Assembly: GCA_945859605.1 (NCBI GenBank)
Contig: OX243816.1
Span: 27,262,924-27,326,923, forward strand
Direction: 5' to 3'
From: Lumbricus rubellus
Lineage: Eukaryota > Annelida > Clitellata > Crassiclitellata > Lumbricidae
Length of the DNA: 64,000 nt
Position numbers and translations under genes: made by a program. Shown piece by piece: positions 10,301-43,300 of the stretch. The notes under the pieces were generated by a model. It saw only the letters and a program-made list of their open reading frames with translations, was not told the origin of the DNA and made no database searches. The number at the start of each line of letters is the position of its first letter. Positions within the stretch are counted from its first letter, which is position 1.

Positions 10301-13300
10301 TCTAAAAATATTCATGTTCTAAATTTCTTGTTTTGCATTTTCTAAGCTGTCGTTAAAATTGTCACCACTATCATTGTGTTTGCCCTCTCCAAAATGTATG
10401 CGGATGTCCATTTGCAAATTTGAAGCAAAGTGAGTTAGGCCCTAGTTAGTGTTTTCTGGAGAGAATTTTACATGCAGGTCAATGCTAAAAGTAGGCTAGC
10501 TGTGACTCGCCTCAAGGTTTAGCGAAGTTTCGTTCTTTCATAATCACCATGTCACATTCGCGTGACAAATTGACTGCAAGAACAGTTGTTTTATACGACG
10601 TAATCATTGTCAATATCGTCAAAGAAAAAATTATAGCCAACAGCGCGGGGCCCCTAAAAGCGCGGGGCCCAAGGCGGTTGCCTCGCTCGCCTTGCCCTAA
10701 GGCCGGGCCTGGGTAGTTGTAGCAGCAGCAGTAAAAATGATGATGACGATGAAGATAACAGAAACAACAACAAAAATAAATGATCGTCTTTACAGTCAAT
10801 ATCATAAAGGTAAAATGAAGGCAGTCACTCATCCATAGAGGCAGCTACCAATTGCATCGTCGTCGTCAATGACGACAGAGGAAATCAGCACAAAAGTCTA
10901 TATAATAAAACAATCTTTGCACAGGACAACGTAGTGTCTCAGTGATCAGTGCTAAGCTGCGAGTGACAACAGTTCGAGATAATAATAATTATTGTACTTA
11001 GCGCTTACCAACGGCGCATATGTGATTGGTATATCCAGGAAGGCAGGTGCAGCTGAAGTCGTTTCCAGAAATACCAGAACAACTTCCACCGTTCTTACAA
11101 GGATTCGGGTTACATGGATCATCTAAAATAAAAAAATGTAGGATATGTCAAAGTTAAACCGCCAGTTAAATCAAATTGAATTTGTGTTTTGTTATTGAAC
11201 TCTGCCATTGTCTGCTGACTCCGACTGTACCGGTCCTACGCCAGCATAAAAAGAAGCATGATCTTTGTTATCACATAGTATCTTTAGACTGAAACAACCA
11301 ACCAGTTTCCAATCCAAAAGCTGAATCATAAAGTCATACGAAGAAGGGCCGCAGTAAGGTTGCTGCGGGCCCGGGTGCTGCAGCACCCTTAGCACCTACT
11401 ATAATTCGGGCCTACCAGGCTACCACCAAGCATAAACCCCTAACTGCCTCACGGGACAAAACGAAAAAAACAAACAAATTGCAAACGTACGTTTTGGAGT
11501 GGTGGGAGTCAAAGTAGTTAACGATGTAGGAGTCAAAGTAGTCGTTAAAGTAGGAATCACACTGGTAGAAGATGGCGAAGCAGTTTCAGGCGTTGTTTCT
11601 TGTACCACGGTGGTTTCATCTGATCTAGTAGTTTCAAGAGTTGTTTCCTGTGCTATTGTGACTACGTCTGATGTAGTAGTTTCAGGCGTTGTTTCTTGTG
11701 CTACTGTAACTTCGTCTGATGTAGTAGTTTCAGGCGTTGTTTCTTGTGCTACTGTGACTTCGTCTGATGTAGTAGTTTCCAGCGTTGTTTCTTGTGCTAC
11801 AGTGACTTCGTCTGATGTAGTAGTTTCAGGCGTTGTTTCTTGTGCTACTGTGACTTCGTCTGATGTAACAGTTTCAGGCGTTGTTTCTTGTGCTACAGTG
11901 ACTTTGTCTGATGTAGTAGTTTCAGGCGTTGTTTCCTGTGCTGCTGTGACTACGTCTGATGTAGTAGTTTCAGGCGTTGTTTCCTGTGCTGCTGTGACTA
12001 CGTCTGATGTAGTAGTTTCAGGCGTTGTTTCCTGTGCTACTGTGACTTTGTCTGATGTAGTAGTTTCAGGCGTAGTTTCCTGTGCTAAACTGACTTCGTT
12101 CGATGTAGTAGATTCAAGCGTTGTTTCATGTGCTACTGTGACTTCGTCTGATGAAGTAGTTTCAGGAGTAGTTTCCTGTGCTACAGTGACTTCGTCTGAT
12201 GTAGTTGTTTCAGGCGTAGTTTCCTGTGCTGCTGTGACTACGTCTGATGTAGTTGTTTCAGGCGTTGTTTCCAGTGATACTGTGACTTCGTCTGACGTAG
12301 TAGTTTCAACAGTTGTTTCCTGTGCTACTGTGACTTCGTCTGATGTAGTTGTTTCAGGGGTTGTTTCTTGTGCTACGGTGACTTCGTCTAATGTAGTAGT
12401 TTCAGGCAAGGTTTCTTGTGCTACTGTGACTTCGTCTGATGTAGTAGTTTCAGGCGTTGTTTCTTGTGCTACTGTAACTTCGTCTGATGTAGTAGTTTCA
12501 GGCGTTGTTTCCTGTGCTACTGTGACTACGTCTGTTGTAGTAGTTTCAGGCGTTGTTTCCTCTGCCACTGTGACTTCGTCTGATGTAATAGTTTCAGGCG
12601 TTGTTTCCTGTGCTACTGTGGCTTCGTCTGATGTAGTAGTTTCAATTGTTGTTTCCTGTGATACTGTGACTTCGTCTGATGTAGTAGTTTCAGGCGTTGT
12701 TTCATGTGCTACTGTGACTTCGCCTGATGTAACAGTTTCAGGGGTTGTTTCTTGTGCTACTGTGACTTCGTCTGATGTAGTAGTTTCAACAGTTGTTTCC
12801 TGTGCTACTGTGACTACGTCTGATGTAGTGGTTTCAGCCGTTGTTTCCTGTGCTACTGTGGTTTCTTCTGATGTGGTAGTTTCAATACTTGTTTCTTGTG
12901 CTACTGTGACTTCGTCTGATGTAGTAGTTTCAGGGGTTGTTTCTTGTGCAACTGTGACTTCGTCTGATGTAGTAGTTTCAATACTTGTTTCTTGTGCTAC
13001 TGTGACTTCGTCTGATGTAAAAGTTTCAGGCGTTGTTTCTTGTGCTACTGTGTCTTCGTCTGATGTAGTAGTTTCAAGAGTTGTTTCTTGTGCTACTGTG
13101 ACTTCGTTAGATGTAGTAGTTTCAGGCGTTGTTTCTTGTGCTACTGTGACTTCGTCTGATGTAGTAGTTTCAGGGGTTGTTTCTTGTGCAACTGTGACTT
13201 CGTCTGATGTAGTAGTTTCAATACTTGTTTCTTGTGCTACTGTGACTTCGTCTGATGTAAAAGTTTCAGGCGTTGTTTCTTGTGCTACTGTGTCTTCGTC

Positions 13301-40300: not shown

Positions 40301-43300
40301 TGTCACCGCTTGGATCGTTGTTTCTTGATCTGTTGTGGTTTCGTCTGATGTCACCGCTTGGTTCGTTGTTTCTTGATCTGTTGTGGTTTCGTCTGATGTC
40401 ACCGCTTGGTTCGTTGTTTCTTGATCTGTTGTGGTTTCGTCTGATGTCACCGCTTGGTTCGTTGTTTCTTGATCTGTTGTGGTTTCGTCTGATGTCACCG
40501 CTTGAATATTTGTTTCATTTTGTGCGTTGTCACCATTTGCTGTGGTTGTTTCAGGCATTGTCGTTTGTTCAATGTCTGTCGTTGTTGTTGAAACCGTTGA
40601 TTGAATAAAAGTAGCGATTGCACCTGCAAAATATTGGAATCTTGTTAGTGTAATCGACGTTTTCTTTTGTCGGTTTATACATTTTTTCGTGAATTTCATA
40701 CACTTAAGTAGTCTATTTAATGTGTCTCGGTGTTGTCTTCGGTTAGTGAGAAATCATATTTAATTTTGAGTGCGTTGGCCTGTCATGGTCCTTTCATGTG
40801 AAGTTGTGCTGCATTTTCCTGCCATTGTCTGTTTCTGATTTGCTCTTCTAGAATCATTTACCCGAGGCTATGGATCTGGCGGAAGATCGCGGTCTCTAGA
40901 GTGAATGTGTTGCTGCATCATGCAACGCCCCAGGAGGGCATGCTCCATGATGATGAATCATTGCTTGAATATATTATCTTGCAATCCTGACGTTTATTAT
41001 CGAGTAAATTCAGTTATTTTCTGAATTTCTAGACGTACTGTTTGGCTTCGTGTAATCACGTGGTCCTAGATGTTTAGTATTTCGCAGTCTTTGGTCATGT
41101 TTTGCGCTTATTCTAATAAGGAGCCTAATTAATTTAATGCGGGCCTATCTGTTTCCCGATTAATATTAGATTAAAATTTAGAGCCGTGTATGCATGGGCC
41201 TACAGACATTTTCGGTCCATCACTACGATAAATAAGTCATTTGCATCTCCGAAATATTTTAATATATCTCTCTGTATTACATCTTCTTGGTTTCTCTTGT
41301 CGCTGCATGCGGTGTGAGGTTTTTAATAAAATTTATGCTAAAAGTTACGTTGAGCTAGCACAAAATATTTGTTGTAGGCTATGTTAAAGTCTGAGGAGCG
41401 CAAACAAATTAGATCCAAAGCAATGTGTTCAAACCTTGTTTGCTGCAATTGAGATTGATGAGTTGTGGTCTGCACTAGACGTGAGCTTGTAATAATTTCC
41501 ACACTTCACCCACACACGTATTTACATATATAGAGTATAATAATTTAGGTCAACCGGAAGAATGTATTAGTCCTAACGGCCAGCGATGATTAAAATAAAG
41601 ACAAGGAAAGTTCACTATGATTGTGCTGCGTTTTATGATGCATAAGAACAGCAACCACTTTAGCAATCGACCAAAAAGAATTCAGTATCTTCATTTGCAC
41701 CGTTGCCGTCATGGGCGGATACTTAGGGGATAGAGGGACAAAGTTTGTGGTGGGGGGACGAAGCTGCTTATATCCTCCACTCTCCAATAGGCTATTTCAG
41801 AAATATTCATAAATATCATTATGAATTTCTGCAGTCTTATCCACTATTTATCCATAATGACTTTTTTAAGATGACAGCTTAAACTGCTACCTTTACAGTG
41901 TGCAAATACAAAACTTTTTCTAACAATGGGAAGGGACATTGAAATCTTAAACCACGTCTCTGAGCACTGAAATCATGAGTAATTTTCTTGAGATGACATC
42001 TTTAAAAACTACGGTTACAGTGTGCAAATCCCAAAGATTTTGGCAATTGGGAGGCGACACTCTGAAGTTTTAAACCATGACTATCAGCATTGAAAAATGA
42101 GCTACTTTTACTAACCTGACAAATACTATAATTACAGTTGGGAAGTTCAAAATTGTAAATAAAATGGGTGGGGCTTTTATTGAGGTCCTAGAGACCTAGA
42201 CTCATCTCTGAGCACCAAAATATTGAGTAATATTTTTAAGATTATGCTTAATCACCTAAGGTTATTTGCAAATCCCGAAAAAAATTAACAATTTTAAGGG
42301 CAACACTCTGAAGTCTTAAACTAGTATACAATGTATCAATCAATCAATCAATCAATCACATAAATTTATATAGCGCCTCTTCAAGATCTCTACTCAGAGG
42401 CGCTCCCAACCCAGGCCTGGTCAAAAAGAAAGGTCTTCAGAAGACGGTAGAAAGAGCCAGCAGAGTCACGAGGAAGAGAACGGAGAGCCGTAGGGGGGCC
42501 ATTCCAGATAGCTGGACCCACCACGGAATAAGATCTTCGCTGCATAGTAGCGGTACGACAAAAAGGGACAAGTCACCGCGGGCAGCTGACCGCAGCGAAC
42601 GGCGGCCCAGAGAAACGGAGACAGGAGTAAAAAGTGCACATAGATATGCTGGAGCTTGAGACAGGATGCAGCGCCAAGCAATACACGAAACTCTGTAAGC
42701 AATGCGTTGCTGCAGTGGGAGCCAGTGGAGGTCGTCCCTCATGAAGGCAGAAACGTGATCGAACCGGGAGATGCCACCAACCAAGCGTGCTGCAGATCGA
42801 AGGACCCTAACCAAGGAGTTCAGGCGGACCTGTGGGAGGCCGACATAAAGAGAAGAGCAGTAATCTAAGCGGCTGCAAACAAAGGCATGGACAAGAGTAG
42901 AAGATGCAGTGAATGAGAGAGAGCGAGCAACAATGCACAGCTGTCGAATTTGGTAATAGCAGGCACGTGACCATGGGCGCCCGCAGAAAATTTTGCAGGA
43001 GGGGGTAAAAATTTTACGTTGGTCATGGTAAAAGATTTAAGTGACAAGAGCATGAAAAATACAGCGCTGGAAATTAAAAACACGGGTATTTTTTCAAAGA
43101 GGTTCCATTTATAATGCAAATTTCTCAGTTTCTTTTTATGTATTATTTTTAATATGAATAGTTTCCTAAGTGCGAAATATTTGTTAAAAATCCAAAAGTA
43201 GATGTTAAAAAGTAGGTCCATGAAGGGCACTATAGGCTATATATTTATTTCTATAGAGATTTCTCAACGTAAATTTATAACTTTCACTGTGTGTATCATT

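Follow-up and report, generated by a model that had tools for sequence, protein, structure and literature searches.

Organization of the locus

The window analyzed here is a 64,000-nt stretch of the genome of the earthworm Lumbricus rubellus (assembly GCA_945859605.1, contig OX243816.1, positions 27,262,924 to 27,326,923). On its minus strand it carries a predicted gene whose second coding exon, hereafter the giant exon, would span 29,133 bp and consists largely of a threonine-rich 48-nt repeat; this is followed by epidermal growth factor-like (EGF) and IPT/TIG domain exons, and the 3' coding end of a paralogue lies upstream (Table 1).

The giant exon sits within a minus-strand frame that is open from stop to stop for 9,777 codons (11420..40753). 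Its length is divisible by three, and there is no in-frame stop, compared with 707 and 206 stops in the two other sense frames; the window does not contain a single N. The exon is preceded by AG (...CCAATATTTTGCAG) and followed by GTACGT, and phase 1 at both of its ends matches the start exon, which ends in phase 1, and the first EGF exon, which begins in it. A preliminary description of this DNA had proposed a single coding exon of this length with no frame break, in phase 1-1 and compatible with both neighbors, and the frame, borders and phases all agree with it. An alternative donor 3' of the giant exon, CCC/GTGAGG, was rejected since it would give phase 0, and the first EGF exon requires phase 1. 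At the other end, a hydrophobic core, identified by eye, continues across the junction of the start exon and the giant exon, which supports that junction; we read this hydrophobic start, again by eye, as a putative signal peptide. Overall, the prediction of one long coding exon whose neighbors fit is well supported by the genomic sequence. A 2,227-codon open stretch on the antisense strand was set aside as a by-product of the repeat, the antisense consensus of one repeat family being open in one frame (family B, below).

Table 1. Predicted features of the window (coordinates relative to its first nucleotide)
Feature	Position	Strand	Details
Start exon, coding part from ATG	45475..45514	-	13 residues plus one base, ends in phase 1; read from sequence
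Giant exon, second coding exon of the gene	11491..40623	-	29,133 bp, phase 1-1, 9,710 whole codons
Repeat family A	20669..40516	-	48-bp units, 413.5 copies (Tandem Repeats Finder); 413 units used
Repeat family B	11582..20671	-	48-bp units, 189.6 copies, ~190 (Tandem Repeats Finder); adjoins family A
Exact tandem duplication	12724..18009	-	2,640 bp, 55 units; copies 15364-18009 and 12724-15369, 2,646 nt identical
EGF exon 1	11009..11122	-	114 bp, phase 1-1; Pfam EGF, PDB sequence match
EGF exon 2	9430..9549	-	120 bp, phase 1-1; Pfam EGF, PDB sequence match
EGF exon 3	7717..7854	-	138 bp, phase 1-1; Pfam EGF, PDB sequence match
First IPT/TIG exon	6288..6459	-	Pfam TIG 9.4e-05, above cut-off; plexin-A4 1.7e-07 (PDB sequences)
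TIG-region exon	3292..3505	-	Phase mismatch with preceding exon
TIG-region exon	2572..2695	-	Pfam on joined exons
TIG-region exon, last modeled	932..1333	-	Basic site RSRRLKRE; gene then leaves the window
Paralogue, 3' coding end	61032..63945	-	TIG region, RSRRKKRS, hydrophobic segment, 171-residue tail; TAA just after 61032

The repeat array

The array, delimited with Tandem Repeats Finder, comprises ~603 units of 48 nt (16 residues, threonine-rich) in two subfamilies, A and B, each with its own 16-residue consensus. Cutting all 603 at a fixed step gave 174 distinct protein and 220 distinct DNA units, although in part of family B the cut did not follow the unit register. The family tests reported below covered 600 of the ~603 units (413 A, 187 B), those at register shifts and array ends being omitted. 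Mean divergence from the family consensus was 3.5% in A and 7.6% in B, so that "near-identical", the term used in the preliminary description, was loosely worded. Within family A, unit-to-unit identity stood at ~0.94 at every lag listed, and the lag scan revealed no regular higher-order period; in family B, identity decayed with distance, from 0.885 at one unit to 0.839 at twelve. The unit register shifts twice, at ~20.66 and ~18.08 kb, and the frame is kept both times.

Within family B lies an exact tandem duplication of 55 units, which may either have arisen recently by unequal exchange or be an artefact of the assembly. The length of 29,133 bp therefore holds for the assembly and is possibly overstated by 2,640 bp; without the duplicated copy, the giant exon would measure ~26.5 kb. 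A coding array that is in truth shorter, or that varies among individuals, the second copy being an assembly duplication or present in one allele, is a serious possibility, if not the one we would choose. It is suggested by two copies, offset by exactly 55 units, that agree at all 2,646 nt even though family B units are on average 7.6% off their consensus, and tandem arrays of this kind do change length by unequal exchange. However, unequal exchange also yields perfect recent duplications, and a shorter array would leave the single-exon interpretation unchanged. Only three other exact repeats of at least 400 nt were found in the array (591, 478 and 423 nt), and the next most similar stretch, at a lag of 64 units, was 99.5% identical over 1,488 nt. 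With so few long exact repeats, reads of several kilobases should resolve the array.

Evidence for coding

Openness alone is weak proof that a 48-nt repeat is coding, because most random units are open: with the same base content, 89% of them have an open sense frame, or 98.8% if all six frames are considered. We therefore simulated 500 arrays in which the observed substitutions were re-placed randomly among sites of the same base. The simulated arrays acquired a mean of 70.3 stops and never fewer than 49, versus none in the real array, and their longest open run did not exceed 1,599 codons, versus 9,710 in the real exon. Synonymous changes were about twice as frequent as expected in both families (332 of 695 in A, expected 151.6; 304 of 684 in B, expected 166.7), and divergence was highest at third positions in both.

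These figures bear on the possibility that the array is a non-coding, satellite-like sequence, intronic or intergenic, which happens to be open by luck of its unit. Chance openness is common, as the random units and the long antisense frame both illustrate, and a test in which each distinct change is counted once (see below) fails to separate coding from non-coding. Nevertheless, none of the 500 simulations came close to an array devoid of stops, both register shifts stay in frame, and the non-repeated ends of the array are in the same frame and join in phase to the hydrophobic start exon and the EGF exons. We consider a non-coding array very improbable.

Splicing of the giant exon

Splice sites were scored with a textbook matrix, and the scores are crude. 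The giant exon contains 825 GT and 2,672 AG dinucleotides, not one of which reaches the median of the modeled donors or acceptors, respectively. For comparison, sites at the median level occur in the first intron at 8.2 donors and 16.5 acceptors per 10 kb, and in a 10-kb intergenic stretch at 11.0 and 23.0. As for polyadenylation-type hexamers, the giant exon has one AATAAA and no ATTAAA.

It could still be that the array is coding but that transcripts splice out internal parts, in which case no mRNA would carry a 29-kb exon. Removal of whole 48-nt units would keep the frame, and potential sites exist at the lower end of the scale: 307 internal GTs equal or exceed the weakest modeled donor (0.3), 433 internal AGs do so for the weakest modeled acceptor (-4.1), and a few GTs beat the exon's own donor. 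Against this stand the lack of any internal site at the modeled median and a best internal acceptor of 1.8, versus 3.9 for the acceptor of the giant exon itself. Splicing inside the array is unlikely.

The encoded repeat region

The giant exon would encode a product of 1,045 kDa with a pI of 4.05 and two N-glycosylation motifs. Threonine makes up 32.6% of the residues, serine 6.2% and proline 1.2%; acidic residues (D + E) account for 24.7% and basic residues (K + R) for 0.66%. Threonine, serine and proline together contribute 3,893 of the 9,710 residues (40.1%), as would be expected of the Pro/Thr/Ser-rich repeats of a transmembrane mucin. One array piece had a weak Pfam match to Fibrinogen_BP (E 0.019), whose 13.8 bits fall short of the cut-off of 50; it was attributed to low complexity and disregarded.

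The repeat also contains 520 S-x-E motifs, 461 of them SDE, out of a total of 604 serines. Ser-x-Glu is the form used by the secretory-pathway kinase Fam20C, and it is carried by most units (385 of 413 in family A, 126 of 187 in family B), so the product could instead be an acidic phosphoprotein, in which a phosphorylated polyanionic stalk binds calcium or mineral. In family A, however, the threonine positions are conserved at 97-100%, the serine at 97% and the glutamate at 96%; a third of the B units have lost the motif, and threonine outnumbers serine fivefold. The arrangement of a stalk beside EGF domains agrees with a mucin-like protein. The protein may be both at once; a phosphoprotein in place of a mucin we regard as rather unlikely.

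Downstream EGF and TIG exons

The three EGF exons, which are in phase with the giant exon, matched Pfam EGF over three stretches (E=5.4e-16), with Delta-like 1 and Notch 1 as the best matches among PDB sequences. EGF domains beside the stalk are a feature of transmembrane mucins of the MUC3/4/12/17 type. Farther downstream, the joined exons from 3505 to 932 matched Pfam TIG above the cut-off (1.3e-05), and the PDB sequence matches of the first TIG exon were led by plexin-A4 and included plexin-A1 and MET. IPT/TIG domains, as found in plexins and MET, are thus detected by Pfam above the cut-off in this gene and in its paralogue. The last modeled exon alone had no Pfam match, and the stretch from 1333 to 890 had no match among PDB sequences up to E=1; it contains RSRRLKRE, which we take to be a furin-like basic site. 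A 28-bp minisatellite of 14.5 copies (532-948, and also 1-60) directly follows this exon and repeats its splice-donor sequence, such that GTAAGT occurs in it 10 times on the minus strand.

Other domains were searched for in the modeled exons with Pfam. No SEA or VWD match was found, in a model that lacks an exon and the gene end, and there was no kinase match, the gene's own tail lying outside the window. Nor is there a sema domain before the TIG domains: the modeled exons that lead up to the first TIG exon join in phase and consist of repeats and EGF only, the repeats being represented by two 500-residue pieces.

The upstream paralogue and other features

Over the aligned part, the TIG region of the paralogue is identical to that of the giant gene at 79 of 177 positions (45%), and the two genes share a basic site, which in the product of the giant gene may be a target for furin-like cleavage. 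The hydrophobic segment of the paralogue precedes a tail with a basic start, in which Pfam found no kinase or plexin cytoplasmic match. Because the paralogue has this segment and tail, we infer a membrane anchor at the end of the giant gene as well. Among PDB sequences, the joined paralogue had nine matches up to E=10, all weak; they included plexin-A2, plexin-A1 and MET but also unrelated proteins. Pfam matches of its membrane and tail part to FAM176 and others fell below the cut-off and were disregarded.

Elsewhere in the window, scans with Rfam (gathering thresholds) and for tRNAs gave no matches. Two minus-strand fragments, at 42440-43036 and 3600-4400, resemble by eye the ends of LINE-type reverse-transcriptase reading frames; the former had no Pfam match. 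G/C-biased minisatellites and a GCGACCATCAAAAGA-type repeat in both orientations are present at 44177-44362 and 52994-53820, and long perfect or near-perfect trinucleotide runs at 3056-3245, 45223-45374 and 51838-51999, in intronic and intergenic positions. The window has 26 occurrences of TAGGCCTA.

Comparison with known systems

The closest counterparts in overall design are the large membrane mucins. MUC4, MUC3/12/17 and MUC16 likewise have one giant threonine-rich repeat exon, and the putative signal exon before it and the probable membrane anchor and cleavage of the giant gene would be further similarities; in MUC4 and MUC3/12/17, EGF domains come after the repeats, whereas MUC16 has none. 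Unlike these mucins, the giant gene encodes very little proline, has acidic residues at a quarter of its positions and carries TIG domains, with no SEA or VWD match in the modeled exons. With plexins and MET/RON it shares the IPT/TIG domains and, as in MET, a putative basic processing site, but it differs in having EGF domains and a mucin-like stalk in front and no sema or kinase match in the modeled exons; the tail of the paralogue is also only 171 residues long. With Notch/Delta-type repeats it shares EGF domains, encoded here by phase 1-1 exons, but there are only three, attached to a giant stalk and TIG domains. Finally, repeated coding sequence that extends for tens of kilobases and is largely or wholly free of introns is also a feature of h-fibroin, the spidroins, Drosophila Muc14A and PKZILLA, but the repeat, domain context and role in the giant gene are different.

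The preliminary description placed the giant exon among the longest coding exons described. In length, it would exceed that of human MUC16 (~21.7 kb). Longer or comparable exons probably exist in the PKZILLA genes of Prymnesium, in Drosophila Muc14A and in caddisfly h-fibroin, from which we judge a length record unlikely.

Interpretation

Taken together, the locus probably holds a real animal gene encoding a mucin-like protein that has an acidic stalk and is either anchored in the membrane or shed. Of this model, the sequence directly shows the open frame, the splice phases and the EGF and TIG exons. Its product would enter the endoplasmic reticulum by way of the putative signal peptide. The repeat region of ~1.05 MDa would be heavily O-glycosylated, resulting in a negatively charged, extended stalk on the micrometer scale, given the 0.25-0.3 nm per residue of such stalks. 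Behind it would come the three EGF domains, then the plexin/MET-like TIG domains and, beyond the window, a transmembrane helix as in the paralogue. Cleavage at the basic site in the TIG region may leave the stalk held non-covalently or allow it to be shed. A likely role would be in a surface coat, in adhesion or in anti-adhesion, in a design comparable to that of the large membrane mucins. The array itself may have expanded by whole 48-bp units through unequal exchange, which would keep the frame, with stop-making changes purged by selection.

Several observations weigh against this interpretation. When each distinct change is entered a single time, synonymous changes show no excess (16 of 75 in family A, 18.4 expected; 26 of 88 in family B, 24.0 expected) and stops are only weakly short (none in A against 3.4 expected; one in B against 3.1). 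The single stop in B arises only in the consensus codon context, the real frame having none. Shared ancestry of the units may therefore inflate the strong coding figures and, the distinct-change test being weak, the strong stop test leans on changes that were possibly inherited. The giant exon's own donor is weak (0.71), such that 16 of the 825 internal GTs outscore it, the best at 2.1. Proline is very low for a mucin, and the two 500-residue pieces of the array that were scanned contained no Pfam family at the cut-off. The model must lack one or more exons between 6288 and 3505, because the exons 6459-6288 and 3505-3292 are out of phase, and the gene end lies beyond the window.

A broader proposal can be put forward only tentatively: that this single coding exon ranks among the longest in animals and that it belongs to an undescribed type of protein, combining a megadalton, acidic, threonine-rich stalk with EGF and plexin-type TIG domains and a furin-like cut. 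The protein would then be a membrane mucin of independent origin, derived from a plexin/MET-like receptor scaffold.

The length of the array makes variation between individuals directly measurable by long reads. If transcribed as modeled, the gene would provide a natural test of exon definition, transcription and translation across an uninterrupted 29-kb exon, and it would be an example of a TIG receptor scaffold that carries a mucin-like stalk.

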